Positions 1,448 through 44,364 of a stretch of 64,000 nt of DNA are shown here, one piece after another. The stretch comes from Harmothoe impar (taxonomy: Eukaryota > Annelida > Polychaeta > Phyllodocida > Polynoidae), in NCBI GenBank assembly GCA_947462335.1, contig OX381714.1:59875800-59939799 (forward strand), written 5' to 3'. Position 1 is the first letter of the stretch; every line of letters begins with the position of its first letter. The position numbers were made by a program, and so were the translations under genes. The notes below the pieces were generated by a model. That model was not told the DNA's origin. It was given only the letters and a program-made list of their open reading frames with translations, and searched no databases.

Positions 1448-4380
1448 TGGTTCTGAAACGAGACCTTCTTTCCTCCGGTTGCTTCGGGTCCTCCACCAGG
1501 CGAACTCCCGATGCTTCCCTTCAGCCATCTGCACGCATCCGTACTGTGGCCCATGCTGTCATGTATCAAGCAATACTTCTGGTTATCTTCACCCAATTCT
1601 GCCCTGCTCTTTCTTTCTTGCATTGTAGTAACTGGCCTCACCTGCAGTCTCTCCTGTTCCTGTTGTCTCAATCTTTGTTTCTGCTTGTTGTAGCTATCGG
1701 CCCCCTGATGAATATTACTCTCCGTCACAGGCGGATATGTTCGTGGGGCCTGGTATTGGAAACTGTTTGGTCGATTAAAATTTGGCCGAAACGGCTGAGG
1801 TCCATACCCCCCTCGTCCAGAACTCCCGCCTTGTCCCCTATACGGGTTCTGGTACGTCGGGTTGTATCCTCCGCGCCCCCCTTGAAAATTCCGGGGTCTT
1901 TGATAATCTTGGTACTGGCGGGCTCCTTGCCCAGTTGCATACGATGGAGCAGGGTTCGAATCCGCCTGCATAGTCATCATATTCATCATAGTAGACATCT
2001 GCTGTCGCAGCCCCTGGATGTCTGGATGCGACGCTTGCATTGGGGCCGATGCGGCCACGGGTTCCTGCTCCGGCGGCTCGACTTCAGCGAGGTTCAGGGA
2101 GACTCCTCCGGTTCTCTTCTCCAGGGTCTCCAGTCGGGTAGCATGGTCGATTGCCGCCTGAAAAGTAGTTTGGTGATTCCGAGCCAGCTCTCTAGAAATA
2201 GCGGGGGTCACTCCGGTCACAAATACTGACAACAGCGACCCGTCCGTATGACCCTCCGTCTCGTATTTCTTTATTTTCGCCGCAAACTCCATAACTGACT
2301 CATTTTTTCCTTGCTTCATCCTGTATAGATCTAGATGTTTCTGCCATTCTTCCCTCTTGTCCTTGAAGGTGGCTACCATGGCAGCCTTGACCTTTTCATA
2401 CGTGTCCTTATCCGCTTCCGGAATTCCCCGGAGCCACAATTTAGCTGTCTCCTTGATACAATATTTGGTCATCTGCAAGTGCTGAGCCGCATCCCATCCA
2501 CACAGGACCCGGAGTTCTTCCATTTGGGCGAAAAACTGAATACAGTCATCTCCCATTCCCGTAAAACTGGGGAGCTCGATTTTTGGTGACGGCGGCATAT
2601 CGTCGTCTCCGTCTTCACTCGAAGTACCGTGTTCACTGCTCTCCTCCCCGCTACTGTCCTCTCCTGGATCACCGCCTTCTCCACTATCACTCTCTTCACC
2701 TTGATTATGTCCGTCCCCTTGATTATTTACGTCGTTTTGATCATCAGCGTCGCTCTGATTATTAATGTCACCCTGATTATTATCGTCGCCTTGATTATTT
2801 ACGTCGTCTTGATTATTGACGTCGTCTTGATTATTGACGTCGTCTTGATTATTGACGTCGTCTTGGTTATCAGCGTCGTCTTGGTCGTTCCTATTTCTTC
2901 TATCCTGGATGCCTCCTCTACCGATGCCCCGTAAATTCCTAAATAGTCGTCCCCCCAAGCTAAACCGGTTCCAACCCTGTAACAAATCCCCTATCTCCTG
3001 TCCAGGCCGTGGAATTACCTGTTGTGCCCCTTCGGCCCTTTCTTGTAATGAGCCCTGCCCCGCTGCGGGAATCCCTTCCGGATAAAAGCGTTGTAATCTT
3101 CTGAAGACACGGTCCTCTTCCGTCTCACTATCGCTGTTTCCCTGGTCCCTCCAGGTGCGATCTATATTACTCCTATTACCTATTCCTTCTTCTAATTCCT
3201 TCTCCCCTCTTTCATCCGTGGACCCCTCGCGGTCGAGCTGGGTACTTCCCCCAGCTTCTGCACCTTGGGCAGAATTTTCTATATCAATCGGGGAACCAGT
3301 TCCTTCTCCCCGGGTAGATTCGACTTCCACCCCTTTTTCCGCTTCCGTGGCGGGTGCCTCTAGTCTGCCCTCTGTGTGATGTCCTATGTCGTGAATGACC
3401 CCTGTTGTCACTGATTCGGTGATGGCTTCTGATTCTTCCTCCTCGTCCACCGAACGTAGTTCTTTAGTATTGCCTCCGTCTTCGGTCTCCTCCTGGCTTC
3501 TTTCTGAAACCTGAAAATCCCCCTCCTTTTCTTCCTGTTTATCACTGGATTTATTTTCTGTGGTTTCCGAGAAGTCTAACTTCCTTCCCACCAAAGATGT
3601 TCCACCCCCTGTATGCCCTAGTAGCGATACTGCTGGAGTGTCGCGCACCTGAGAGCTATGGCGATTCTCACCTCTCTCACGAATGCCCGTGCTACACTGC
3701 CTAGGTGTGACTCTGAAAGTTATTTCAGCTTCCGAGCCCTCTTCAGTATCCTGTCCACACGTGCTGGTAGCCCCTCCTATGGCATACCCCTGCTGCTCGC
3801 CTGTGCTACTAGGTGTTACAGGTATGTCTCGAGCAAACCCGTGGACCCCCTCTGTTGTCTGATTATAATTCCTCGATCCCTGACTCAACACCAAATGAGC
3901 GTCGGGATCACTTTCCCAGGTCTCCCTTTGTGGAGTTCCCTGGGTTGATTCAAAGGGTTGGGGATTACCTGACCGCCGCCATGCCTCAGTCACAGGCTGT
4001 ATCCTATTGTCGCTGCCCAGTTCAACTGGGTCCGCACTACCCCCAGATCTCAGGACGCGTCCGGGTTGATCAGTCCCTTCGGCCTCCGTATCGACCCGGT
4101 CACCTAACGCTTCCACTACACTCTCACCTTCACTGCTATACACTCTGCCAACCTCACTGCCAATGTTACCTTCGCCACCACCTACCTGCGTTGGTACTAT
4201 TGCGCGGCCCCTACTCGTGACACCGTCTTGATCGGTGTCTCCCGCGGGCGGTCCTAATTGAGCCTGTAGCCCATCCGGTACGGGGAACGGGGTACCACTC
4301 ATCAGAAGACGAGAGGCTGCACTTGAGGTGCTCCACCAGTCTGTACGGTAAGTGTTTACAGTTGGGTCAAAATTAAGCAA
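1438..4380 (-). CDS. gag: Ty3/gypsy Gag polyprotein with very long acidic N-terminal region
   Basis: A 980-aa ORF. The Gag (capsid-type) domain is at about residues 595-760, marked by LPSFTG, KLWLRGIPEADK, TFKDKREEWQ and VMEFAAKIKKYE. A glutamine/glycine/arginine-rich stretch follows (about 800-900), then a zinc-knuckle-like CLIHDSMGHSTDAC near residue 937, in the nucleocapsid position. What is unusual is the first roughly 590 residues: low-complexity, rich in E, G, D, S, Q and T, with a tandem NNQDDV-type repeat. Typical Ty3/gypsy Gags are 300-500 aa, so this is about twice the normal length. The start chosen is the first Met of the frame; a second Met at residue 28 is possible. It ends at the slippery site and TAG before pol. 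Its role would be particle assembly and RNA binding. Confidence 0.9.
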   Translation of the reverse strand: MLNFDPTVNTYRTDWWSTSSAASRLLMSGTPFPVPDGLQAQLGPPAGDTDQDGVTSRGRAIVPTQVGGGEGNIGSEVGRVYSSEGESVVEALGDRVDTEAEGTDQPGRVLRSGGSADPVELGSDNRIQPVTEAWRRSGNPQPFESTQGTPQRETWESDPDAHLVLSQGSRNYNQTTEGVHGFARDIPVTPSSTGEQQGYAIGGATSTCGQDTEEGSEAEITFRVTPRQCSTGIRERGENRHSSQVRDTPAVSLLGHTGGGTSLVGRKLDFSETTENKSSDKQEEKEGDFQVSERSQEETEDGGNTKELRSVDEEEESEAITESVTTGVIHDIGHHTEGRLEAPATEAEKGVEVESTRGEGTGSPIDIENSAQGAEAGGSTQLDREGSTDERGEKELEEGIGNRSNIDRTWRDQGNSDSETEEDRVFRRLQRFYPEGIPAAGQGSLQERAEGAQQVIPRPGQEIGDLLQGWNRFSLGGRLFRNLRGIGRGGIQDRRNRNDQDDADNQDDVNNQDDVNNQDDVNNQDDVNNQGDDNNQGDINNQSDADDQNDVNNQGDGHNQGEESDSGEGGDPGEDSSGEESSEHGTSSEDGDDDMPPSPKIELPSFTGMGDDCIQFFAQMEELRVLCGWDAAQHLQMTKYCIKETAKLWLRGIPEADKDTYEKVKAAMVATFKDKREEWQKHLDLYRMKQGKNESVMEFAAKIKKYETEGHTDGSLLSVFVTGVTPAISRELARNHQTTFQAAIDHATRLETLEKRTGGVSLNLAEVEPPEQEPVAASAPMQASHPDIQGLRQQMSTMMNMMTMQADSNPAPSYATGQGARQYQDYQRPRNFQGGRGGYNPTYQNPYRGQGGSSGRGGYGPQPFRPNFNRPNSFQYQAPRTYPPVTESNIHQGADSYNKQKQRLRQQEQERLQVRPVTTMQERKSRAELGEDNQKYCLIHDSMGHSTDACRWLKGSIGSSPGGGPEATGGKKVSFQNQGN
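2695..2890 (-). repeat. 18-bp coding tandem repeat inside gag
   Basis: About ten imperfect units based on GATTATTGACGTCGTCTT (plus strand) encode repeated NNQDDV-like hexapeptides in Gag. The period is a multiple of three, so copy-number change does not break the frame. The repeat lies in the disordered acidic part just before the capsid-like domain. Confidence 0.85.
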
Positions 4381-23003: not shown

Positions 23004-23075
23004 CAGATCTACCGGGAATCGAACCCAGATCTCTCGCACCATAGACGAGTGTGCTAACCATTACACTACAGATCC
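23004..23075 (-). tRNA. tRNA-like gene or pseudogene, His-type anticodon AUG
   Basis: The minus strand folds as a cloverleaf: 7-bp acceptor (GGATCTG with TAGATCT, with terminal G-U pairs), D-arm GTGTAATGGTTAGCAC, anticodon stem CTCGT/GCGAG around loop CTATGGT, and T-arm CTGGG-TTCGATT-CCCGG with a good B box. Position 34-36 reads ATG. Genuine tRNA-His normally has GTG, so this is more likely a tRNA-derived repeat or pseudogene than a working tRNA. A TTTT pol III terminator lies about 15 bases downstream. No intron is seen. Confidence 0.6.
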
Positions 23076-33606: not shown

Positions 33607-33843
33607 AATCCTATAAGGACGGCATGTCACTATAAGAGGACATTTGTCGTCATGATGCACCAATGCAGCTCCACCGAGTAAGACGCCAGTGCTGCATTGG
33701 TACATCATGCCGACCCTTCAGGAGTGTCTCAACCAGGCAGGGTCCGCATGATGCTTCAACGCAGCACCGGTTAGTTACTCGCCAGGGCTGAATTTATGCA
33801 TTATGACGACCAAGGGCACAATGCATTAATGCATGATACCGTC
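33607..33843. mobile_element. MITE family A copy, left part, split by the Maverick
   Basis: It starts ATCCTATAAGGACGGCATGTCAC and runs to TGCATGATACCGTC, where the Maverick begins. The missing last bases are at 44359-44375 (ACCGTCCTTATAGGGTTA), which match this copy's own left end in inverted form. Confidence 0.9.
33838..33843. repeat. Maverick target-site duplication, left
   Basis: ACCGTC immediately precedes the left terminal inverted repeat and is repeated at 44359-44364. A 6-bp duplication is the known signature of Maverick/Polinton integration. Confidence 0.92.
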
Positions 33844-34262
33844 AGTAGTATAGTATGTATCGGAACGGGACTATAGTTAAGTACTGTTTATTACTCAATC
33901 GACATGCAGCCAATCAGAGGCCTCCATTTGGTCACGTGACCCGTTGCCATGGTAACGTGACCTACTTAGGGCTCTCAGCCAATCAGAAGCCAGCATTCTG
34001 GGTGACCTACTGACCTACTTAGAAGCTCTCAGCCAATGAGAGGCTGGCATTCTGGTAACTATGGTAACGTGACCTACTTACGTCACGTGACCTACTTAGG
34101 CTCAGCCAATCAGAAGCCGGCATTCTGGTAACTAGGGTAACGTGACCTACTTAGGGTTTGTTTGTAAACAACACCACGTGGCTCTCTTGTTTGTAAACAA
34201 CACCACGTGACACGTGACTGTTTGTAAACAAACAACGTATATATAGAAAAAAACACAACAAG
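33844..34262 (+). repeat. Maverick left terminal inverted repeat with transcription-factor-like site array
   Basis: It is complementary to 43919-44358. Inside are four units of about 55-70 bp, each opening with CAGCCAATCAG (a CCAAT box) and closing with GTGACCTACTTA. Palindromic GTCACGTGAC and other CACGTG E-boxes, a GTTGCCATGGTAAC (RFX X-box type) at 33943-33956, and three TGTTTGTAAACAA forkhead-like palindromes are also present. The inner end is TATATATAGAAA. Confidence 0.93.
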
Positions 34263-34351
34263 TTCCATCTTATGTTAAAATTATATTTTCGAATAAAAAA
34301 GCACATCTGTAACAGCGTCTATGTGTAACTACGCGCGTTCTCATTCAAACA

Positions 34352-34987
34352 CTATAACACTATCATACCGTAGCAGCAGCAGGTAGGACCGGAAGAAAAG
34401 CAAGCGCACGAGCAGAAGCGACGACACCATTTGCACCATCCGGCCGTCGCGTTGGTAGCCCTACTACCCGTCGCGCGTTCCACTAGAGCGGCTTTAAGAG
34501 TGACAAATGACGATTCTTTGTCGACGCGACTGCTAACATCAGCATCGGCAGCAGCATCGGCAGCATCGGCAGCAGCATCGGCAGCAGCGGCAGCAGCCTC
34601 GGCAGCAGCGGTAGCAGCAGTAGCAGCAGCGGCAGCAGCAGTAGCGTGAGCATTAGCAACAACAGCAGCAGCGACAGTAGCAAGGGCGGCAGAGCGGGCA
34701 CTAGTAGCGTTATCAGCGGCGTCATCGGCAGCCGCAACAGCATCAGCAGCAGCAGCGTCGGCATCGGTGGCATGAGTAGCTGCATCGGCGGCAGCAACAG
34801 CAGCAGTCACAGCCGCAGCGGCAACAACAACAACGTCATCACGACCCGCGTCACTAACAGCCGCAGTAAATGCAGCAGTAGCACGCTGAGCAGCACTAGC
34901 AGCAGCAGTAGCAGAGGCTACAGCATCAGCTTCACATTCGCGCGCCGCTTCGTCATTCCGCTTCATGTCACGGTAGCAACTTTCCAT
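34352..34987 (-). CDS. Unrecognised Ala-rich protein with Cys-rich C-terminus (Maverick left block)
   Basis: I do not recognise this protein. From the Met at 34987 it is 211 aa: a short charged head (MESCYRDMKRNDEAARECEA), about 140 residues made mostly of A with D, T and V in an (AAADA)n-like pattern likely to be helical, then a Cys-rich tail with nine cysteines (GWCKWCRRFCSCACF and CCCYG). The ORF extends upstream to 35104 through a 14-Leu run coded by a CTA repeat. However, the minus-strand TATA box at 35107-35120 would place transcription start at about 35083, downstream of that ATG, so I prefer 34987. It is transcribed divergently from the rest of the element. The trinucleotide composition means it could also be non-coding low-complexity sequence. 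Confidence 0.45.
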   Translation of the reverse strand: MESCYRDMKRNDEAARECEADAVASATAAASAAQRATAAFTAAVSDAGRDDVVVVAAAAVTAAVAAADAATHATDADAAAADAVAAADDAADNATSARSAALATVAAAVVANAHATAAAAAATAATAAAEAAAAAADAAADAADAAADADVSSRVDKESSFVTLKAALVERATGSRATNATAGWCKWCRRFCSCACFSSGPTCCCYGMIVL

Positions 34988-35017
34988 CACGAGGATCTGC
35001 AAATTGAGGCGCGGTGC

Positions 35018-35025
<8 letters not shown>

Positions 35026-35068
<43 letters not shown>
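35026..35068. repeat. TAG trinucleotide repeat (14 units)
   Basis: A perfect (TAG)14 run just downstream of the minus-strand TATA box. It would lie in the 5' leader of the Ala-rich gene. Confidence 0.9.
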
Positions 35069-35106
35069 CGTGAACGATGATGACGATGCTGAATGTGGTT
35101 TCACTC

Positions 35107-35120
35107 CCCTTATATACCCT
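35107..35120 (-). promoter_or_regulatory. Minus-strand TATA box for the Ala-rich gene
   Basis: The minus strand reads GGGTATATAAGGGG, a strong TATA box, about 120 bases upstream of the Met at 34987 and facing away from the plus-strand genes. Confidence 0.65.
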
Positions 35121-35620
35121 TACGCCCCGCCTTTTTTCAAGCCACCGGCCAGCTGCCCCTTCACGGCAGGTCTTTAGATCAGCCTTAAGTCGCTTACTAC
35201 GTGGCTCATCATCCCTCTAATCGCATTTTCCAGCCGCCAGCCGGCTGTCTGCTGATGACAGGCGAGGGTGATTTGTTTTTTTCTTTAGATATAAGCCGCT
35301 TACCACACGCGCACCCTCTAGTCACAGACAGAGTGACAGAAAGGGAGGGGGTCGCTTTGTTCACGCTACCTGTAGTTGTTTTTCTATACACACGCTGAGC
35401 CCATGACCCGTTAATCCTTTATACAGGTAACACGCGTTCAACTAATTACCCTATTGTATGACAGTCGGTACACGGATTTAATTTTAAACCGCCTTCCCAT
35501 CTGGGATCCATGTCTGGCGGGGTGGAAGGATCCAGCTGAAAAGTGTGATTAGGGCTTTTGTTTCTCTTATGCTAGCAGCAGGTCAGCATGCGACAGCTGA
35601 AAATGTCAGACTCGCCGCTC
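35121..35620. other. Divergent intergenic region of the Maverick left block
   Basis: About 500 bp separate the minus-strand TATA box from the plus-strand TATA box at 35622. Two 60-65-aa ORFs overlap here on opposite strands at about 35201-35398. Neither has a recognisable feature and I do not call them. Confidence 0.45.
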
Positions 35621-35621
35621 C

Positions 35622-35629
35622 TATAAAAG
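35622..35629 (+). promoter_or_regulatory. TATA box of the 216-aa ORF
   Basis: TATAAAAG followed by ACTGAGATGCG. Counting about 30 bases to a start site, the first ATG on the transcript is at 35847, the start of the 216-aa ORF. AAAAGACTG is shared with the box before the major capsid gene. Confidence 0.7.
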
Positions 35630-35846
35630 ACTGAGATGCGTCTCTCTTTCCACACACCCTTCTACCATCGCCGCCGACACCGCCACCGCCGGCCAGCCGA
35701 CCGCCGCCACCGCCTGCAGTCACCGCCATCACGCCAGCAGGGAATTTCGAGCTGAGTCTGCTTATTGCTTATTTTTTTTCTTTGAGCTTTTTGTTTTCTT
35801 AAATTTTTATTTTCACTCAGTCTTTTTTGTTTCGGAGGAAAGAAAT

Positions 35847-36497
35847 ATGGCGCTGCAGAGGGCGCGAGTTTCTAAAAGACGGTCGCGCGAACAAAGCGCT
35901 CTCCTCAACTGCCCGGCTATTTTTTTATCTCAAAGGAGAGAGCGTCACGTAGTTGAGGTTCACGCTTCTCTTGAGGCGTACCGAATTCTCGAGAAATGCA
36001 AAGCTGAGCGCCATCGTCGTTATACAAGAGCGGAAAAGGAAAACGTAGCGACATGGCCGAGAGCCGTCTTCTCAGAACAGCATTTACTCTACTATTGCAT
36101 AACAGCTGCTCTCAGCGCCCCCACTCGTTGGGCGTTTCATGAAAAGAAAGAGCGCCGCTACTCTCCTCACCCTGCCTCCTCTTATAAAGTGAGAATAAGT
36201 GCTATGAAACGATTCGACAAGCCGATCGGTTTCTTGGGAGCGACTGCAGCTCCCACTCGGTGGGCGCGCGTTGTGGCCGACGTGAACACGGTCTCTAAAC
36301 GTTTCGACGTCGTCACTTGTTATCCCGCATATTGCAACGCAGCCGAATTGAAGAAGATAGGGACGCACTATTTTAAACCATACGCTCCAATATGTATTTG
36401 TCACCGCCGCGCTCACACGCCTTATTGCTTTTTCGAGACGATCGTGTCACAACACAGAAATAGAAAAAAAAACGGCAAAGCGACGAGCTTTGCCTAA
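35847..36497 (+). CDS. Unrecognised basic 216-aa protein in the replicase position of the Maverick
   Basis: I do not recognise a family. The protein is basic, with Arg/Lys clusters at its start (RARVSKRRSR) and end (HRNRKKNGK). It carries an internal duplication: APTRWA at residues 91-96 and 135-140, and KRFD at 121-124 and 151-154. A Cys/His cluster lies near the C-terminus (C158, C163, C183, C185, H186, H190, C194) that could bind metal. It has its own TATA box 225 bp upstream and its start is the first ATG after it. It precedes the ATPase gene, where Mavericks often carry replication or accessory genes. With no polymerase in the element, a role in recruiting a helper or host replicase is an attractive guess, but nothing in the sequence shows it. 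An accessory host-interaction protein is equally possible. Confidence 0.6.
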   Translation: MALQRARVSKRRSREQSALLNCPAIFLSQRRERHVVEVHASLEAYRILEKCKAERHRRYTRAEKENVATWPRAVFSEQHLLYYCITAALSAPTRWAFHEKKERRYSPHPASSYKVRISAMKRFDKPIGFLGATAAPTRWARVVADVNTVSKRFDVVTCYPAYCNAAELKKIGTHYFKPYAPICICHRRAHTPYCFFETIVSQHRNRKKNGKATSFA

Positions 36498-36531
36498 ATG
36501 ATCAAAAAAAAAAACAAAAAAAAAAAACTAA

Positions 36532-36592
36532 TCTCCTCCTCCTCCTCCTCCTCCTCCTCCTCCTCCTCCTCCTCTTCTTCTTTTTTAAAAAA
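36532..36592. repeat. CTC trinucleotide repeat followed by A/T tract
   Basis: About 13 CTC units, then CTTCTTCTTTTTTAAAAAAAAAA, between the 216-aa ORF and the stem-loop. The 86-aa minus ORF over it is poly-Glu and is not called. Confidence 0.9.
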
Positions 36593-36602
36593 AAAATAAA
36601 TA

Positions 36603-36635
36603 TTTGTATCAGACTCCTCTGGAGTCTGATACAAA
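36603..36635. promoter_or_regulatory. Perfect 15-bp stem-loop between two Maverick genes
   Basis: TTTGTATCAGACTCC, loop TCT, GGAGTCTGATACAAA: a perfect stem with a 3-base loop, flanked by A/T-rich DNA. It lies about 105 bp after the 216-aa ORF and 210 bp before the ATPase. It may be an RNA processing or termination signal, or a cruciform; the function is unknown. Confidence 0.7.
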
Positions 36636-36717
36636 CATTTATGACTATTGAGTGAAAATAGAATTTTATCGCAAAAAAAAGTCACTTCTGCCGCCGCTAC
36701 TGTGACACCGGCCGGAA

Positions 36718-36735
36718 TCAATAAAAAGGTCGGCG
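36718..36735 (+). promoter_or_regulatory. Promoter-like motif upstream of the ATPase (AATAAAAAGGTCGGCGG)
   Basis: AATAAAAAG directly followed by GTCGGCGG. The same pieces, AAATAAAAAG and GGTCGGCG, recur before the major capsid gene at 41811-41838. The AATAAA could also end the transcript of the 216-aa gene. No ATG occurs between about 36750 and the ATPase start. Confidence 0.6.
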
Positions 36736-36842
36736 GACTTTTCTCCACAACCATTCACCACCGACCGTTCGAGTGAGAAACACAGCAGACAGTCAGACAC
36801 ACAACCGCTCTCTGACGCGTCCTGAAAAAAAAAAAAAAAAAA

Positions 36843-37562
36843 ATGTCCAGTAGTAAAAGCAAACTCTTCACAGAAATTCATTTCGACGCTCGACTACAAG
36901 GACCCTTTAGTTGTATCATTAGCGGTCCGTCGGGTTGTGGAAAATCGCGCTTGGTGGATCAATTTCTGAGCGACGTGAACAATTTGGTCACGCCGCCGGT
37001 GGAAAAGACTTTTTACCATTACGGCGAGTGGCAACCTCTGTTTGAAAAAATGGCAAATCGGTACGGTGTGGAATTCAGAGAAGGTCTTCCTAGCAAAGAG
37101 TCTATAGCGGGAGACGTGGAAGTAGCAGAAGACGCTGTACGACCCCACACTCTACTGATATTGGACGATCTGATGAGCAGTTCCAATCAGCAAGTGGTAG
37201 CCGACATCTTTACTAAATACTCGCATCACTGGAACGTGAGCGTCATATACATCACTCAGAACCTCTTCCAGAAATCACCCGACTTTCGAACTATGAGTCT
37301 GAACGCTCACTACATGATCGTTTTCAAGAACCCGCGCGACATGGGGCAAATAGCTAGTCTGTCTCGCCAGGTGTTTCCGTCCAACGCGGCGGCCCTCTCT
37401 AGTATATTTACCCATGAACTCAAGCGACCTCACTCATACCTCCTCCTGGACTTCAAGCAGTCAACACCTGACGATCTGAGAATACGCTCCTCTTTGACGG
37501 CCATACACTCTCAGCTAGTGTTCGTACCGCTAGACAAAAAAAAGAACAACAGAAAGCAGTAG
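36843..37562 (+). CDS. ATP: Maverick A32-like genome-packaging ATPase (FtsK/HerA superfamily)
   Basis: 239 aa. The Walker A motif GPSGCGKS is at residues 28-35 and Walker B LLILDD at 104-109, followed by the family-typical HHWNVSVIYITQNLF (129-142). The length and motif spacing fit Maverick/adintovirus packaging ATPases, which by family knowledge pump the genome into preformed capsids. The protein ends in a lysine-rich tail. The ATG follows directly on a run of about 18 A, as also seen (shorter) before the next gene. It is the first gene of a tightly packed plus-strand unit; the next gene starts nine bases after the stop. Confidence 0.95.
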   Translation: MSSSKSKLFTEIHFDARLQGPFSCIISGPSGCGKSRLVDQFLSDVNNLVTPPVEKTFYHYGEWQPLFEKMANRYGVEFREGLPSKESIAGDVEVAEDAVRPHTLLILDDLMSSSNQQVVADIFTKYSHHWNVSVIYITQNLFQKSPDFRTMSLNAHYMIVFKNPRDMGQIASLSRQVFPSNAAALSSIFTHELKRPHSYLLLDFKQSTPDDLRIRSSLTAIHSQLVFVPLDKKKNNRKQ

Positions 37563-37571
37563 CAAAAAAAA

Positions 37572-37904
37572 ATGTCTTCTCATCTACTCGAAAGACACTT
37601 TGGTACTCTCAAGCACTTAGCTAAGTGCTCGCCAAAGGACTGCTCGCATCTAATAGACTCTGGAAGCGACGAGCTGATCGCAGCGTTGAGTGAGATCTGT
37701 CACAATTTACTGGTAGGGAACATCCCGCTCAGCGACAAACAACTGGACAAGCTTCGAGAATCGGCTGACGTGTTGAGGGAGGTCGGCAAAAAATCTACGC
37801 CCATCAAAAAAAAGAGACGCGTCTTGGTACAAGAGGGAGGTTTCCTCATTCCGGCTCTCATAGGGATGGCCTTACCGCTTATAAAGAGCATTCTCCGTAT
37901 ATGA
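37572..37904 (+). CDS. Small conserved Maverick protein (KKKRRVLVQEGGF type)
   Basis: 110 aa. The N-terminal part is helical, with the pattern SHLIDSGSDELIAALSEICHN. It is followed by IPLSDKQLDKLRE, a basic KKKRRVLVQEGGF segment (about residues 84-95) and a short hydrophobic C-terminus. Proteins with this same order, ending in a lysine-rich stretch, VQ.GG and a hydrophobic tail, are widespread beside the capsid genes of Mavericks and adintoviruses. I recall them only as conserved proteins of unknown or virion-associated role. The ATG is preceded by nine A. The stop overlaps the next start as ATGA, which suggests coupled translation. Confidence 0.8.
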   Translation: MSSHLLERHFGTLKHLAKCSPKDCSHLIDSGSDELIAALSEICHNLLVGNIPLSDKQLDKLRESADVLREVGKKSTPIKKKRRVLVQEGGFLIPALIGMALPLIKSILRI

Positions 37905-39106
37905 GACACGTCATTCGACACCTACTCGCCGACAGCACCACCACCACCACCACCACCACCACTACCGCCACCACCAGCGTCATTGCCACCGGCGTCCCCA
38001 TGACGGACTCAGAGCAGCAACAACACTACAAACGTTTAGCGCTCGTGGATCCTGAGACGCTCTACAAATCATCACGAGCAGGTCTACTTCATCATGTGCC
38101 CGCTGCTGCTGCTACTACTAGCGCTGCTACTACTGCAGTCGCTGCTGCTAGTACTTCTACTGCTCCAAACCTTCCTCCTCTTCCTGATGAGCGCACTGAA
38201 AAGAACGAGAGTTCCGCTCCTGCCACCGCCGCCCGCCTACCCGCCGACATGGCCTATTACCACAAGCAGGCAGAGCAGTCCCTTCATCCCGACGCGGCCT
38301 TGCACCAGGTGCTACAGTTTATCTACAGGGACTTGGATTTAGTGTTGAACGACCCCACTTTGGAATCGCGCGAGAAAATGTTGAAATACCGAAGGTTGTT
38401 GAATAGATTGCAATTTTTTCTCGCGAATCCCCACAACAGCAACATCTCTTCGTCCTACTCTTCTTCGCCCCCGGCTCACCTCCGTCAGTCTGCTGAAGAG
38501 GCCAGCGCGTCCCTACTCGAGCGGTTGGCGAACCAAGTTCCCAAGAGGAGTCGCCGCCGGACCGTGGAGCTGTACAAACAATTGGAGAAATCCGGAGTGA
38601 TCAAGTGGAACGAGGACGGGGCGGTGCGCGAGATGTCGGGTCGGAGAATACCACCTGAGCATCGCATCAACATAGTGGACTTACTGAACGACGCCGCCAG
38701 GTTCAGGAAGACGGCGCCCAGACCGGCGGGCTACTCGCCGTTCACGAAAGCGCTGCGCGAAGCGGTTCCCACCACAGACGCCTTGATCGGAAACCATCTG
38801 TATAAAGCGAGCGGACCTGGCCAAAGTTTGGACACACGGCTTGCTGACAGAGGTCGGAAACGACCGAGCTTCGAATCGGAAGAAGGAGAAGCAGCAGCAG
38901 CAGCAGCAGCAGTAGCAGCAGCAGACTCTTCTCTGCAGGTGGTGGACGATCAATCCTCTGACGACGAGGAGGACGACCGTGAACTTTTCCAAACTCCGAC
39001 TTCCTATAGGAGCGCGCCGCGTAGTAAGAAAAGGAAAGCGCGCAACCGCCTAGCGGCGAGCTCGTCTTTCACGCCCTCAAGAGACCCGCGATGGGCAAAC
39101 CAGTGA
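37901..39106 (+). CDS. Conserved Maverick protein of unknown function with low-complexity N-terminus
   Basis: 401 aa. Residues 12-115 are low complexity (a Thr run coded by ACC repeats, then Ala/Thr/Pro). A helical segment follows (about 115-175, AEQSLHPDAALHQVLQF). The recognisable core is at about 218-300: KQLEKSGVIKWNEDGAV, RINIVDLLNDAARFRK and TTDALIGNHL. It matches my memory of a conserved Maverick protein with the pattern W-G-G-I, then NI-DL, then R/K-P-G-F, whose role is not settled. The C-terminus is acidic, then basic (RSKKRKARNR). It starts in a 4-base overlap with the previous gene and overlaps the integrase start by 16 bases. Confidence 0.82.
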   Translation: MRHVIRHLLADSTTTTTTTTTTATTSVIATGVPMTDSEQQQHYKRLALVDPETLYKSSRAGLLHHVPAAAATTSAATTAVAAASTSTAPNLPPLPDERTEKNESSAPATAARLPADMAYYHKQAEQSLHPDAALHQVLQFIYRDLDLVLNDPTLESREKMLKYRRLLNRLQFFLANPHNSNISSSYSSSPPAHLRQSAEEASASLLERLANQVPKRSRRRTVELYKQLEKSGVIKWNEDGAVREMSGRRIPPEHRINIVDLLNDAARFRKTAPRPAGYSPFTKALREAVPTTDALIGNHLYKASGPGQSLDTRLADRGRKRPSFESEEGEAAAAAAAVAAADSSLQVVDDQSSDDEEDDRELFQTPTSYRSAPRSKKRKARNRLAASSSFTPSRDPRWANQ

Positions 39107-40227
39107 AGAGACTGACCAAGAAGGAAAAAGAAAAGAAGCGCGTAGTAGCTAGATATACCGACGTCAAAGCGCCCTCCAGTTTCACTAGCGTGACTAAACT
39201 CCAGAAACAGCATTTTCGCCACCTGAACCCGGCCGTCATCCGAGATGCTTTAGTGTCGCTGGACGCCTACACTAAACATAAACCCATTCGGAGAAAATTC
39301 GCAAGGAACAAGACTATAACCGGCGCAATCGATCAGCAGTGGCAGATAGATCTGATGGACATGCAAGCTTTGGCGTCTCACAACGACCGCTTCCGGTACG
39401 TGGTGACGGCGATCGACGTTTTCTCTAGGTACGCGTGGGCCGTTCCCATTAAATCCAAGAGCGGCGCTGATGTCACCGAGGCCTTCCGAGAGATGACAGG
39501 CCCTGGCGAGAGACGACCGCGCACTGTTCAGACAGACAAGGGGAAAGAGTTTTTGAACAAGATCTTTCAAGATCACTTGAAGAGCGAGGGCATAGAGTTC
39601 TTCACTGGCGAGAACGACGACATCAAAGCTAGTCTAGTGGAGCGCTTGAACCGCAGTCTGAAGGAGAAGCTGTGGCGTTATTTCACACACAAGCGCACGT
39701 ATCGCTACGTAGACGTGCTGCACCATGTAGTGTCTTCTTACAATCGCACTCACCACAAGACATTGAAAATGGCGCCGGCTCAAGTCAGCTCGGAAAACAG
39801 CGAAACAGTTTTCTACCGACAAGATCTCCCAACTAACAAACAAATCGACGAAATATGGAAAAAGAAGAAAAAAACAAAGACGTCCGCCGTCGACGTCATC
39901 GCTCCGGGTGACAGAGTGAGGATGTTGAGAACTAAAGGCGCCTTCGACAAAGGGTACGAGGGAAACTGGCGCGAGGAAGTGGTCGACGTTGCTAAGACGT
40001 TGGGAAGCAGAGGGTTCGAGCTGAAAGACGACAAGGGCGAGGAGATAAAAGGCGTCTTCTACCCGGAAGAGGTTCAGAAGGTGTACAAGAGTCGTTACGA
40101 CAACAACTACCTGATAGACGAGGTGTTGCGCCGCAAGACCGTCGACGGTAAAGAGTTAGCTTTCGTACGTTGGTTAGGTTACGACGACAAGTTCAACGAG
40201 TGGATCCCCGTCAAAAAAATAACGTAA
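39091..40227 (+). CDS. INT: Maverick retroviral-type (rve) integrase with C-terminal chromodomain
   Basis: 378 aa, intact. The catalytic DD35E triad is visible: D87 (QWQIDLMDM), D149 (VQTDKGKEF) and E184 (SLVERLNRSLKEKLWRYF), with exactly 35 residues between D149 and E184 by numbering. Upstream is the family motif YTKHKPIRRKF. The C-terminal 341-378 is a chromodomain (IDEVLRRK, ELAFVRWLGYDDKFNEWIP), expected to guide integration to chromatin marks. By family knowledge it inserts the element and creates the 6-bp duplication, which is seen here. I see no clear N-terminal HHCC zinc domain. It sits in the middle of the virion gene unit, with four bases to the next start. Confidence 0.97.
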   Translation: MGKPVKRLTKKEKEKKRVVARYTDVKAPSSFTSVTKLQKQHFRHLNPAVIRDALVSLDAYTKHKPIRRKFARNKTITGAIDQQWQIDLMDMQALASHNDRFRYVVTAIDVFSRYAWAVPIKSKSGADVTEAFREMTGPGERRPRTVQTDKGKEFLNKIFQDHLKSEGIEFFTGENDDIKASLVERLNRSLKEKLWRYFTHKRTYRYVDVLHHVVSSYNRTHHKTLKMAPAQVSSENSETVFYRQDLPTNKQIDEIWKKKKKTKTSAVDVIAPGDRVRMLRTKGAFDKGYEGNWREEVVDVAKTLGSRGFELKDDKGEEIKGVFYPEEVQKVYKSRYDNNYLIDEVLRRKTVDGKELAFVRWLGYDDKFNEWIPVKKIT

Positions 40228-40231
40228 CAAA

Positions 40232-41350
40232 ATGAACATCACTCTACCTAGCAACAGCTCTATGGAGTATTATCCTGACAACAGCTTGACGTCTTTCCGA
40301 ACTCACTTCGACTCGCCGCTCCTTCTGCCCGAAGCGTACGAAGCGGCTCTGACTGAGATCATCCTCCCTACAGAATGGACTAACGTGCACGACGACGACT
40401 TGATCATCGTTGTTCCTCTGCGCACCAAAGGTTCGCTAGAGGAGGCGATCCAGGTTTTAAAAGAAACTAATTTCTCCGAAGGAAAAAAACCACAGGTAGA
40501 CTGGAAGAGAATGAAAAACGCGAACGGTCTGAGCAAGCTAACGTTCAGCTCAAAATTCCCGCTGAACTGGAAGGAAGCGAGCTATGTAACGGTGGAAGAG
40601 ATATCAGACACGTCGGAAGAGCAGCAATTGAAACCGGAAACAAAAAGGTTCAAGAGAGAGGTCGACTTGAGACAGAAGAATGCCGTATACAAGCAGTTCT
40701 TGTCCCCGGCGGTGAAGAAGAAGACGATCAGCCATCAAGCAAGACAGATGATCGAAAAGATGGAGAAGGACATGGGAGTGCGCAGTTTCATGCCAAACAT
40801 ATTCGAGATACCTCCTATTTTCACCGGAAGCAACCACACCCTAATCGAGCGCTTGAGTGAGACGTTGCGAGATGACAGACTAGAGGGCGACAGCTTCTTG
40901 CTCAAACCGATGCGGATCTTATCGTACGACGCCAAGACGAAACGCGTCACCATCAAACCGCCGAGACACTGTGCTGTCCTGCTGAGTCAGCATCTCGCAT
41001 GCGTTCTAGGCTTCGGAGAGAAGACGTGTTTCGCGTCGCCGACTACCGGCGCCTACTCGATGGATGTTTACGGGGACGTGCACTCTGTGTACATATACAC
41101 CGACATGATCCAGGAGAGACGTGTGGGCGACATGCAAGTGCCGCTGTTGCGCTGCGTGGCGGTGGACAGAGGCGGAAAGCGTCGAGGTGGCGTGCAAGCT
41201 ATCAGTTTTCCCCATTTGGATTATTTCCCCTTGAAATCCAAGAGGTTTACCGAGGTCGGCATCTATTTAAGAGACCGATCCGGTCATTCCATCCCATTCG
41301 GTAGAGGCGAGGTGACCGCGACACTTCATCTGAGACCTATTGAGCGCTGA
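40232..41350 (+). CDS. mCP: Minor capsid protein (penton-like single jelly-roll)
   Basis: 372 aa. The N-terminus carries the hallmark of Maverick/adintovirus minor capsid proteins: YYPDNSLTSFRTHFDSPLLL followed by YEAALTEIILPTEW (residues 13-49). The C-terminal half has the matching late motifs: VYIYTDMIQERRVGDMQVPL, LRCVAVDR, FTEVGIYLRDRSGHSIPF and VTATLHLRP at the end. By family knowledge it forms the capsid vertices. The middle (about 130-200) is charged and variable. It starts four bases after the integrase stop, with AACAAAATG context. Confidence 0.92.
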   Translation: MNITLPSNSSMEYYPDNSLTSFRTHFDSPLLLPEAYEAALTEIILPTEWTNVHDDDLIIVVPLRTKGSLEEAIQVLKETNFSEGKKPQVDWKRMKNANGLSKLTFSSKFPLNWKEASYVTVEEISDTSEEQQLKPETKRFKREVDLRQKNAVYKQFLSPAVKKKTISHQARQMIEKMEKDMGVRSFMPNIFEIPPIFTGSNHTLIERLSETLRDDRLEGDSFLLKPMRILSYDAKTKRVTIKPPRHCAVLLSQHLACVLGFGEKTCFASPTTGAYSMDVYGDVHSVYIYTDMIQERRVGDMQVPLLRCVAVDRGGKRRGGVQAISFPHLDYFPLKSKRFTEVGIYLRDRSGHSIPFGRGEVTATLHLRPIER

Positions 41351-41361
41351 AAGAGAAGAAA

Positions 41362-41790
41362 ATGATGCGTCAACGCGTTCCGTACTTTCCACCCAGGCGC
41401 ACCGTCGGCAGAGGGTACAGCGATTACTACAACGCGCAGCTGGGCAACGGCGTCAACGTGTACAGCGGGCGCTCTTTCCAGAGCGGGCACGGTTTAGGCG
41501 GCGCTCTGTTAGGTCTGATGCGCTCGGCTACCCCGCTATTGAAGTCGGTGGGAAAAACGCTGCTCCGCGCCGGTGTGGGCGTAGCTAAAGATGTGCTGGC
41601 GGGTCGGACTTTAAAGAGCAGCGTGAAAGACCGAGGCGCAGGCGCTCTGAAGAGACTGGCGAGTACGGCGTTCTCGGGAGGAAAGACGCCTGTCGCGTCT
41701 AAGAAAGGGTCGAAACGTCGTCGTGGGCATTCCCCTCAGACGGGCGGTGGCTCTTGCAAGAGACGTAGAGGGGATGTATTCGACCGGTAA
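41362..41790 (+). CDS. Core/membrane-active virion protein, adenovirus pX/pVI-like
   Basis: 142 aa, Gly/Arg/Lys-rich. After a Tyr/Asn-rich head comes a Gly-rich hydrophobic segment (GHGLGGALLGLMRSATPLL, about 43-61), then an amphipathic basic helix region (GKTLLRAGVGVAKDVLAG) and a strongly basic tail with two nuclear-localisation-like clusters (KKGSKRRR, KRRRG). This order is typical of the small virion core protein of Mavericks and adintoviruses and recalls adenoviral core or membrane-lytic precursors. It is a likely substrate of the protease encoded downstream. It closes the first gene unit; AATAAA follows at 41812. Confidence 0.78.
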   Translation: MMRQRVPYFPPRRTVGRGYSDYYNAQLGNGVNVYSGRSFQSGHGLGGALLGLMRSATPLLKSVGKTLLRAGVGVAKDVLAGRTLKSSVKDRGAGALKRLASTAFSGGKTPVASKKGSKRRRGHSPQTGGGSCKRRRGDVFDR

Positions 41791-41807
41791 GCGCCTAGGC
41801 GTTCAGG

Positions 41808-41838
41808 TATAAATAAAAAGACTGGAGGCGGTCGGCGT
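41808..41838 (+). promoter_or_regulatory. Combined TATA box and AATAAA before the major capsid gene
   Basis: TATAAATAAAAAG (41808-41820) contains both a TATA box and AATAAA. It is followed by ACTGGAGGCGGTCGGCG. AAATAAAAAG and GGTCGGCG are shared with the motif before the ATPase, and AAAAGACTG with the box before the 216-aa ORF. It would both end the upstream unit and start the capsid/protease unit. A 13-codon upstream ORF starts at 41854 in weak context and overlaps the capsid start. Confidence 0.65.
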
Positions 41839-41869
41839 CAGTCTGTCGGCCGCATGAAGAGAGAACACA

Positions 41870-43174
41870 ATGGCTTACGTACACGAGAGCAGTAACGAGT
41901 GCGCGCTCTCTGAGCTCGACCTGCACACCGTAGCGCCGACTCAGACTACTATCTTAAAGTCGTCTTTCCTGGGGATAGAAACAAAAAACTCTTTAGAGGA
42001 TGGAGGTAACATAAATTTCACCATCAACAAGTCGCAAGAGTACACAGACCTGAACGAGAATTACCTTCATCTGGAATGTCAAGTGCTAAAGGACGGAGCG
42101 GCGATCGAGGACACCGACGCGGTAGCTCCGGTGAACAACTTGGCTCACTCGCTCTTCAAAGACGTCCAAGTCTCCATCGGCGGTTTCAAAGTGTCTGGCA
42201 ACACCGAGACCTACCCTTACCGAGCTTACTTGGAAGGGTTACTCAACTACAACAAAGACGTGAAGGACGGCGTCATGAGCGCCCAGGGGTGGCATGAAGA
42301 TACGCCCGGTCAGTTTGACACGTTGACTGACGCGAATGCGGGGTACAAAGCGCGCAAGAAGCTAATCTCCAACAAGCGCTTTTCGCTGATGGCGCGACTG
42401 CACTTTGACCTGGCTCATCAACCGAAGCTCATCGTTGGAGAGACAGAAATCAATCTCACTCTGAAACAAGCGGCGCCCTCTTTCTATCTGATGTGCGCCG
42501 CTGACGGAGGCTACAGCTTGAAGATCTACAAAGCAAAGCTCTACGTGCGACGCGTGCTGGTGGCGGACGCTGTAGCGGAAACGCACGAGAGAGCGGTGAT
42601 AGAACACGGGCCCTTCGACTACCCGGTGAACAGAGTGGAGGTGACGACCTACGCCATCCCTCAAGGTAACAGAGATCACAGCTACACGCACTCCAACACA
42701 GGCCAGCTTCCCAAGTCGATGATGATTTGCTTCCTTGACCACGACGCCTTCAACGGTAGCTACACCAAGAACCCGTTCGAGATGAAGCATTACGACATCA
42801 GCTCGCTTCAAGTGATAGTGAACGATCAGAAAGTGCCGAACGACGCCTACGTGCCCGACTTTAAGACCAAAGCGGCCGTGAGAGAGTACTTGGCGCTACA
42901 CACGGAAACGGGGATGTACGAGGGCGCGCGCTCCTGCGGTATTTCATACGAACAATTCCTGAACGGTTACACGGTGTTCCCCCTCGACTTAACCCCAGAC
43001 AGATCGCACGACGGGTGTCGCGTGAACCTTATAAGAGCGGGTCAGCTGAGGGTGGAAGTCAGTTTCCGCTCGGCGCTACAAGCGACAACAACGGTGCTAC
43101 TCTACTTGGTGTACGACAACGTCGTCGAGCTGACCCGAGATCGACACCCCGTCACCGACTACCACATGAACTGA
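41870..43174 (+). CDS. MCP: Major capsid protein (double jelly-roll hexon)
   Basis: 434 aa. It carries the signature of Maverick/adintovirus hexons: a Ser/Glu-rich start, INFTINKSQEYTDLNENYLH, then VNNLAHSLFKDVQVSIGG and the very conserved TYPYRAYLEGLLNY (about residues 104-117). QGWHEDTPGQFD and RLHFDLAHQPKLI follow further on. By family knowledge it trimerises into the pseudo-hexameric capsomers of an icosahedral capsid. No stop or frameshift is present. The start ATG has A at -3 and G at +4. It opens the second plus-strand unit, with its own TATA box 60 bp upstream, and the protease start lies 29 bases after its stop. Confidence 0.96.
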   Translation: MAYVHESSNECALSELDLHTVAPTQTTILKSSFLGIETKNSLEDGGNINFTINKSQEYTDLNENYLHLECQVLKDGAAIEDTDAVAPVNNLAHSLFKDVQVSIGGFKVSGNTETYPYRAYLEGLLNYNKDVKDGVMSAQGWHEDTPGQFDTLTDANAGYKARKKLISNKRFSLMARLHFDLAHQPKLIVGETEINLTLKQAAPSFYLMCAADGGYSLKIYKAKLYVRRVLVADAVAETHERAVIEHGPFDYPVNRVEVTTYAIPQGNRDHSYTHSNTGQLPKSMMICFLDHDAFNGSYTKNPFEMKHYDISSLQVIVNDQKVPNDAYVPDFKTKAAVREYLALHTETGMYEGARSCGISYEQFLNGYTVFPLDLTPDRSHDGCRVNLIRAGQLRVEVSFRSALQATTTVLLYLVYDNVVELTRDRHPVTDYHMN

Positions 43175-43203
43175 AGACAAGACGGCGGTACTTGGCGTAT
43201 CGT

Positions 43204-43656
43204 ATGAACACGCTTGAAATAAGCAGAGTGTTGAAGGAAAACGTTCACACAAAACATCGTTTCCTGGGCGTTTTCTCTTGTGACACTATTCCGAAGCACC
43301 CTATCAAAGACACTTGTTTCGTGAGCAACACAGATCCGCAACATTTACCAGGTCAGCATTGGGTGGCGTTTTACGTGTCGAGCACGGGTGAAGTGTACTA
43401 CTTTGATTCCTTCGGCTTACCGCCGCTGAGTGCGGAGTTCTTGTCTTTCGTGGAACGCTCTGCTCCGTTCAAGTGGCAAAGAAACCGCATTCAACTACAA
43501 GACACTTCTGCTGACACCTGTGGACCTCATTGCGTTCATTTCCTAATTGAAGCATGTCGAACAAGAAACCCCAAGAAGTGCGTCATGCGCATGAGCAAAA
43601 TCCCAAAGCTGAGCGACCGGGTCGTGAGTCAGAAGCTATCGATGATGCTGTTGTGA
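43204..43656 (+). CDS. PRO: Adenain-like cysteine protease (C5 family), capsid maturation protease
   Basis: 150 aa from the Met at 43204; the frame is open further upstream but that part overlaps the capsid gene and has no protease similarity. The catalytic residues stand with adenain-like spacing: H52 in GQHWVAFYV, D68 in VYYFDSFG, Q99 in IQLQD and C106 in DTCGPHC. The Q-to-C distance of seven equals that of the adenovirus protease. By family knowledge it trims capsid and core precursors during virion maturation. It lies directly after the major capsid gene, probably on the same transcript. Confidence 0.94.
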   Translation: MNTLEISRVLKENVHTKHRFLGVFSCDTIPKHPIKDTCFVSNTDPQHLPGQHWVAFYVSSTGEVYYFDSFGLPPLSAEFLSFVERSAPFKWQRNRIQLQDTSADTCGPHCVHFLIEACRTRNPKKCVMRMSKIPKLSDRVVSQKLSMMLL

Positions 43657-43853
43657 CGGGTTGTTGCGATGGCGGCCGTTTCATGGAGGCAAAGATTCTC
43701 TGCCTTGCCGAAATGGTGTTGGATTTATCCAAAGTCGTGCAATGTCTATTGGAGAAAAGTCGTCCGGGGTGTGGTGGTGCGAGTGACGGCGGCGTGAGAC
43801 TTTGCGGCCTGTTGAGTTGCTGCAAATCGAAGAAGCAAGCTAAAAAAGCATAA
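43554..43853 (+). CDS. Possible 99-aa overlapping ORF at the Maverick 3' end
   Basis: It starts inside the protease gene in another frame (overlap about 100 bases) and continues 197 bases beyond it to a stop, about 30 bases before an AATAAA. It has a hydrophobic helix (FMEAKILCLAEMVLDLSKVV) and a Cys/Lys-rich tail (LCGLLSCCKSKKQAKKA). I know no homologue. It fills otherwise empty sequence before the polyadenylation signal, which favours it, but it could be spurious. Confidence 0.45.
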   Translation: MSNKKPQEVRHAHEQNPKAERPGRESEAIDDAVVTGCCDGGRFMEAKILCLAEMVLDLSKVVQCLLEKSRPGCGGASDGGVRLCGLLSCCKSKKQAKKA

Positions 43854-43884
43854 ACTTGTGTGTTTTTTCTGATTGAAAATGAAA

Positions 43885-43890
43885 AAATAA
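43885..43890 (+). terminator. Polyadenylation signal of the capsid/protease unit
   Basis: AATAAAGAATAAAATG: two AATAAA hexamers about 30-45 bases after the last ORF and just before the right terminal repeat. Confidence 0.65.
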
Positions 43891-43918
43891 AGAATAAAAT
43901 GAAAAGAAAAGAAATTAT

Positions 43919-44358
43919 CTTGTTGTGTTTTTATTTCTATATATAAGTTACATAACTTTTTTTTGTTTGTTTGTTTACAAACAGTCACGTGTCACGTGGT
44001 GTTGTTTACAAACAAGAAAGCCACGTGGTGTTGTTTACAAACAAACCCTAAGTAGGTCACGTTACCCTAGTTACCAGAATGCCGGCTTCTGATTGGCTGA
44101 GCCTAAGTAGGTCACGTGACGTAAGTAGGTCACGTTACCATGGTTACCAGAATGCCGGCCTCTGATTGGCTGAGAGCTTCTAAGTAGGTCAGTAGGTCAC
44201 CCAGAATGCTGGCTTCTGATTGGCTGAGAGCCCTAAGTAGGTCACGTTACCATGGCAACGGGTCACGTGACCAAATGGAGGCCTCTGATTGGCTGCATGT
44301 CGATTGAGTAATAAACAGTACTTAACTATAGTCCCGTTCCGATACATACTATACTACT
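43919..44358 (-). repeat. Maverick right terminal inverted repeat
   Basis: Reverse complement of 33844-34262, with about four substitutions and an indel at the inner end (extra CAAACAAA/AAGTTATGTAA). It ends CATACTATACTACT. CCAAT, CACGTG, X-box-like GTTACCATGGCAAC and TTTGTAAACAA-type sites are conserved in mirror order. Confidence 0.93.
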
Positions 44359-44364
44359 ACCGTC
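44359..44364. repeat. Maverick target-site duplication, right
   Basis: ACCGTC, identical to 33838-33843. The following CTTATAGGGTTA completes the split family A copy. Confidence 0.92.

Follow-up and report, generated by a model that had tools for sequence, protein, structure and literature searches.

A capsid- and integrase-coding Maverick lineage without its own recognisable DNA polymerase in Harmothoe impar, a putative satellite of a related Maverick

How does a Maverick that carries capsid, packaging and integration genes replicate when it has no recognisable DNA polymerase gene, and is it one damaged copy or a lineage of its own? These questions are raised by an element of 10,515 bp (positions 33844-44358, ends AGTAGT...ACTACT) in a 64,000-nucleotide stretch of contig OX381714.1 of the polychaete Harmothoe impar, hereafter the window. 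A preliminary description of this DNA had reported intact terminal repeats, a 6-bp duplication and ATPase, integrase, capsid, core and protease genes within 10.5 kb. All of these were recovered, as terminal inverted repeats (TIRs) of 392 bp, a target-site duplication (TSD) ACCGTC and eight core open reading frames (ORFs) without an internal stop: ATPase, PM, PZ, integrase, minor capsid, PW, major capsid and protease (Table 1). The element was classified as a Maverick by its TIRs with the Maverick end motif and 6-bp TSD (motif after PMC8097293), an rve integrase with its triad, a packaging ATPase, an adenovirus-like protease, and major and minor capsid proteins, the latter two recognised by kinship. 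We consider it probable, from sequence comparison, that it represents a satellite lineage of Mavericks that codes for capsid and integrase, has lost the gene for the family B DNA polymerase (PolB) while keeping the rest of the core, and would be replicated by a PolB acting in trans.

The polymerase would be expected on the left side of the element. About 2.6 kb of non-virion sequence had been described there, without a polymerase; both the size (34236-36842, 2,607 bp) and the absence hold, whereas the implied emptiness does not, as the stretch contains an alanine-rich ORF with a cysteine-rich tail and a gene that we call X216. A six-frame Pfam scan of this stretch returned four matches below cut-off, none of them to a replication protein. 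Neither the ORFs of the window nor the six left-region frames gave a Pfam match to a helicase, primase or other replicase, and sub-cut-off matches of P-loop and helicase type fell on the packaging ATPase only. When the PolB of the relative L009 (see below) was searched against the whole window, the best E values were 8.7 in tblastn and 0.087 in phmmer, the latter on a low-complexity ORF.

Relatives suggest what the left region held before. A capsid alignment, searched against bacterial and archaeal assemblies, led to five loci in genome bins (L009-L013), which are probably animal contamination in published bacterial bins (tubeworm and mussel symbionts, among others). The locus in a tubeworm symbiont assembly, L009, reads PolB-ATPase-PM-PZ-integrase-minor capsid-PW-major capsid-protease on one strand, with a PolB of 1401 aa (PF03175, 2.8e-9). 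In the window, the eight genes after PolB recur with their order and strand unchanged, and X216 stands at the place of PolB. PolB matches are carried by four of the five loci (L009, L011, L012 and L013); none was found in L010, a mussel-associated contig with broken genes. Because L009 combines PolB with the same eight genes in order, we infer that PolB was lost or replaced in the lineage of the window, in line with the earlier claim that replication alone had been lost. X216 is separated from ATPase by 345 bp, as PolB is by 350 bp in L009, and in this one comparison the similarity suggests that X216 may have replaced the PolB gene. We also considered X216 as a remnant of PolB and rejected this (BLASTP against L009 PolB, best E 27). 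The near-perfect hairpin between X216 and ATPase has no counterpart in the corresponding interval of L009.

The genome holding the window comprises 1.512 Gb in 736 contigs, and our searches of it scored the best candidates only, so that first-look candidate numbers, here and below, are not copy numbers. With X216 as the query, 150 of 1,880 first-look candidates were scored, and with the major capsid protein (MCP), 97 of 2,818; every scored copy was full length and 100% identical to that of the window. Among the capsid copies, 57 are preceded on their own strand by a scored X216 at a distance of 5-12 kb. The spacing is 5,995-6,060 bp in 54 of these (6,023 bp in the window) and 5,395, 7,718 and 9,877 bp in the others, while 40 capsid copies have no X216 partner in the scored list. 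Because these 40 add to the 150 scored X216 copies, we infer at least ~190 loci, on nine contigs besides that of the window; complete elements at all 1,880 candidate places would amount to ~1.3% of the genome. Twelve copies were fetched around X216. In all twelve, ATPase and PM follow directly downstream of X216, and none has a PolB between X216 and ATPase. Both ends were read in ten, with tip-to-tip lengths of 10,410-10,537 bp (the stretch from PM to the right end lying outside the reading), and each of the ten is flanked by its own perfect 6-bp TSD, all differing, in different surroundings. One copy (L052, with L068 and L069) is inserted inside another, at the place corresponding to window 35451-35476. 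Pairwise substitutions among 13 copies range from 0.06 to 2.35% over ~3.6 kb, and the observed-to-expected CpG ratio is 1.12 in the element versus 0.46 in its flanks. Because X216 and ATPase are adjacent in 12/12 copies and the length is nearly constant in ten, the PolB-less element is a lineage rather than a single deleted copy, and it has amplified recently and integrated with TSDs. It had been stated in advance that sisters carrying a polymerase in the left gap would reduce the element to one deletion; the proposed search for sisters yielded the copies above, and no such case was seen.

Satellite viruses build particles of their own and rely on a second virus to be replicated, and virophages depend on giant viruses. 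The Maverick of the window has its own capsid genes, as a satellite of the virus type does. We propose that, when a full Maverick is active in the cell, its protein-primed PolB would recognise the TIR ends of the satellite (the tip AGTAGTATA and the set of motifs) and copy the satellite's linear DNA. Packaging of this DNA would be the task of the satellite's own ATPase, capsid proteins and protease, and its own integrase would insert the copies at further 6-bp targets. X216 and the alanine-rich protein could act early, possibly by bringing the helper polymerase to the ends of the satellite. Of the earlier proposal of a helper-dependent satellite, the lineage is thus observed and a candidate helper with an open PolB is present, while the dependence itself is suggested by the missing PolB together with an open PolB family in the genome. 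More tentatively, and with somewhat less confidence than in the satellite itself, we picture a two-tier system in which a full Maverick would give PolB and a compact satellite, having swapped PolB for X216, would share its end code, appear in greater number and act as a virophage-like parasite on a related endogenous virus. The proposed helper would be a related Maverick in the same genome, in contrast to the giant viruses that serve virophages.

With the PolB of L009 as the query, 33 places were scored (of 6,982 candidates), with 38-39% identity over residues 99 or 101 to 1401. They contain an open frame of 1364 aa in 31/33 and lack an internal stop in 32/33. Nineteen share a contig with a scored X216 or capsid copy, the nearest at 50.8 kb; the other 14 are without such a comparison. 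In the copy on C15, a 510-aa gene precedes PolB and a 312-aa gene follows it, after which comes the terminus. The copy on C14 has 767 bp in common with the upstream piece of the C15 copy (99.3%). Beyond this lie genes for a DUF5662 and a Death-domain protein, an ATPase (47% to the window) and PM (44%); an ORF at the position of PZ was recognised by eye. The Death-domain and DUF5662 genes of this candidate helper are found at L077 and L076. The family is a different element, a fuller related Maverick. Its right terminus was borne out by 40 scored places of 421 candidates: apart from the query itself, homology ends in all 39 at query base 292-305, just beyond the tip (base 291). The C15 terminus and the TIR of the window are identical in their first 9 nt and have in common AGTAGTATA, CCAATCAGAAGC, TGACCTACTT and CACGTG sites, as well as seven 10-mers, compared with at most four in 500 shuffles and 500 genomic pieces. 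The comparison of terminal repeats with a PolB-bearing Maverick, proposed earlier, thus revealed a shared tip and shared words, with an alignment score that is borderline.

Several points weigh against a helper-replicated satellite. The local alignment score of the two TIRs, 28, was reached by 5/500 shuffles and 2/500 genomic pieces, and ends of the AGTAGT type occur in many Mavericks (PMC8097293). The candidate helper was read as PolB, ATPase, PM, an ORF in the PZ position and one terminus. Relative to the window, the ATPase of the 12 fetched copies has 0-2 synonymous and 0-7 nonsynonymous changes, so that this short range gives no sign of purifying selection. X216 has 0-4 synonymous and no nonsynonymous changes, in copies that were picked for identity, and the perfect identity of the scored copies is in part a selection effect of scoring the best candidates. 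More diverged or PolB-bearing copies may be hidden behind this scoring, and candidate numbers are a poor guide to copies, as the 6,982 drawn by the PolB query against 33 scored illustrate.

The main rival, a different replication mode as the preliminary description had also considered, is an autonomous lineage in which X216, as an initiator or origin-binding protein, would draw host polymerases to the TIRs, with no helper involved. We regard this as unlikely, though a serious contender. Three database proteins resemble X216 (97, 82 and 79% identity); they are 216, 217 and 211 aa long and differ by gaps of whole residues. A TATA-like box lies upstream of X216, which stands where L009 has PolB and at a similar distance from ATPase. 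The TIRs are packed with likely host-factor sites: each has four NF-Y-type CCAAT sites, five CACGTG sites and five WAWNTRGGTCA sites, which we take to be of ROR type, whereas the remaining 53.5 kb of the window contains four, three and one, respectively. The left TIR has six TAGGTCA half-sites. This cluster is possibly a host-factor origin or enhancer. The scored copies also outnumber the maximum of 38 intact elements in one genome among vertebrate Mavericks (Barreat and Katzourakis 2021, PMC8097293), in a survey that takes up regions with INT and pPOLB hits. Against the autonomous lineage, X216 has no Pfam match, a single PDB match too weak to be meaningful (E 0.87) and no distant database relative. 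A structure prediction had been proposed for the left region; the AlphaFold model of X216, built from four sequences, has a predicted local distance difference test score (pLDDT) of 33.6, too low for the model to be of use. The alanine-rich ORF likewise gives no known fold or function in the searches made. It is open in 13/13 copies (window included), all of which keep its start and TATA-like box; it measures 203-212 aa in the ten copies seen to its stop and leaves the fetched piece in three, and in L051 its cysteine-rich tail is shortened. X216 has no recognisable relative beyond its own lineage, and a replicase of a new type is compatible with its negative Pfam result.

Less probable than host-polymerase replication is a helper other than the L009-type family, either another Maverick family of the genome (PolB classes of 1177-1189 aa or 1400-1500 aa) or an exogenous DNA virus. 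Other open PolB classes are indeed included in the 129 matches to PF03175 in the genome, some of which are genes in pieces. A second class (L014-L021) consists mostly of open frames of 1175-1189 aa, spread over many contigs and 22-23% like the PolB of L009. We fetched 20 stretches of 9.9 kb around PF03175-type genes. A capsid gene is present in 18 of them, but it is merely 22-28% like that of the window, and the satellite terminus is absent from all 20 except for a satellite copy beside one at L030; a minority of their own termini was read, and the 1177-1189-aa class was seen with short flanks. At L030 (8381-9901), a PolB-less copy directly adjoins, or is embedded in, a Maverick of another family that bears PolB.

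We consider it improbable, slightly more so than another helper, that the usual form of the element carries both PolB and X216, with the copies seen being one successful deletion derivative. Inspection covered top-scoring copies, and relatives at 71-81% (P0002-P0006, P0081-P0086) lie outside the PolB reading, yet no PolB is found between X216 and ATPase in the 12 fetched copies, and the L009-type PolB family sits in the different element described above. Passive spread of a deleted copy by host duplication, or an assembly artefact, is highly improbable: the near identity of the copies is the sole point in its favour, and it is contradicted by the individual TSDs in different flanks (10/10 copies), the copy-in-copy insertion, the nine further contigs and a 99%-identical integrase in other data sets.

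Among known systems, vertebrate Mavericks (PMC8097293) share with the satellite the (AGT)2//(ACT)2 ends, the 6-bp TSD, the gene orders atp-pm-pz and int-mcp-pw-Mcp-pro and, with a mean of 402 bp, the size of the TIRs; they differ in having ppolb and in the length of intact elements (12.7-24.6 kb, versus 10.5 kb here). Adintoviruses (preprint PMC11071296) similarly have an rve integrase alongside capsid, protease and packaging genes of adenovirus type, but are defined by a PolB with an N-terminal OTU-like domain, of which there is none in the window. The same preprint mentions genomes without recognisable PolB and integrase, whereas the integrase is kept here. Endogenous viruses of protists (PMC10120064) code for capsids without a detected polymerase, as here, but have protist hosts; the window has no helicase match and the rest of the element is a Maverick core. 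A Tlr1 element is described as having an integrase, with a helicase replacing PolB (PMC11071308), and non-autonomous DNA transposons move by enzymes supplied in trans (PMC6431247). In the available parts of the open literature, including these five articles, we found no animal Maverick lineage that codes for capsid and integrase yet lacks PolB.

The features of the element are collected in Table 1, in which PM, PZ and PW are named from the gene order in PMC8097293 and the capsid proteins from gene order and tblastn kinship.

Table 1. Features of the Maverick and its borders (window coordinates)
Feature	Position	Strand	Remarks
Left target-site duplication ACCGTC	33838..33843	.	matches right copy
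Left TIR, tip AGTAGTATA	33844..34235	+	392 nt, 4 mismatches to right TIR
Alanine-rich ORF with cysteine-rich tail, 211 aa	34352..34987	-	TATA-like box ~35111
TATA-like box upstream of X216	35622..35628	+	
X216, 216 aa	35847..36497	+	at the place of PolB in L009
Inverted repeat of 22 bp, 3-nt loop (near-perfect hairpin)	36596..36642	.	between X216 and ATPase
Packaging ATPase, 239 aa	36843..37562	+	Adeno_IVa2 8e-5, 22 bits (cut-off 21); Walker A GPSGCGKS
PM-position ORF, 110 aa	37572..37904	+	32% to L009, E 1e-10
PZ-position ORF, 401 aa	37901..39106	+	30% to L009, E 2e-7
rve integrase	39091..40227	+	rve 3e-13; triad D87-D149-E184 (D,D,35,E)
Minor capsid (penton-position) protein	40232..41350	+	two stretches 34-37% to L009; tblastn E 2e-18
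PW-position basic protein	41362..41790	+	37% to L009, E 9e-7
Major capsid protein, 434 aa	41870..43174	+	75 homologs; 36% to L009, tblastn E 1e-84
Adenain-like protease, 150 aa	43204..43656	+	Peptidase_C5 4e-5, 23.7 bits (cut-off 21.3)
Possible gene, 99-aa ORF	43554..43853	+	overlaps protease end; 97% identical in L030 copy; no Pfam match
Right TIR	43967..44358	-	392 nt
Right target-site duplication ACCGTC	44359..44364	.	

The PW-position protein is probably the "core" protein of the preliminary description, and the C-terminus of the integrase has a chromo-like region below the Pfam cut-off. Database relatives were found at 95, 81, 79, 80, 73 and 72% identity for the MCP and at 99, 94, 81, 80, 80, 77, 77 and 71% for the integrase, in steps that resemble those of the X216 relatives. 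The 99%-identical integrase belongs to a database cluster from other data sets, the longest contig of which, itself unread, measures 10,510 bp, about the size of the element. In an integrase tree of 46 rows, which carries long-branch warnings, the window groups with P0079-P0086 (9 rows, 100/99), and L009, L011 and five rows from the genome's other PolB Mavericks fall outside this group. When the MCP alignment was used for a PDB profile search, the 48 sequences listed to E = 1 were ribonuclease A throughout (best 1.4e-4), a likeness that we judged to be chance; for the minor capsid protein just two matches appeared, at E 0.4 and 0.66. IMG/VR contained no relative for the MCP, the MCP alignment, X216 or the integrase alignments, and none of the eight IMG/VR contigs holding a 17-nt TIR word matches any of ten window ORFs (tblastn, E 1e-3). 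The MCP has no match among phage records. In PHROGs, the integrase draws transposase-type and weak other matches and the minor capsid protein one weak match (E 0.042), with none for the other four proteins queried. Elsewhere in the window, a 980-aa open frame (1438-4380, minus strand) resembles a retrotransposon gag by eye. The sole tRNA-like locus found by Rfam and ARAGORN (23004-23075, minus strand) is a tRNA-His-like gene with the anticodon ATG, perhaps a tRNA-derived repeat; this anticodon is unusual for histidine.

Mavericks are called self-synthesising on account of their own polymerase, and non-autonomous DNA transposons usually lose all of their genes, whereas here the polymerase alone is missing. 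Screens that require PolB would miss such elements. A lineage that dropped this one gene and spread to at least ~190 loci means that replication has been separated in nature from capsid and integration functions, and it opens to test the supply of PolB in trans, the marks of replication ends, the formation of Maverick capsids and the restraint of a helper by its satellite.

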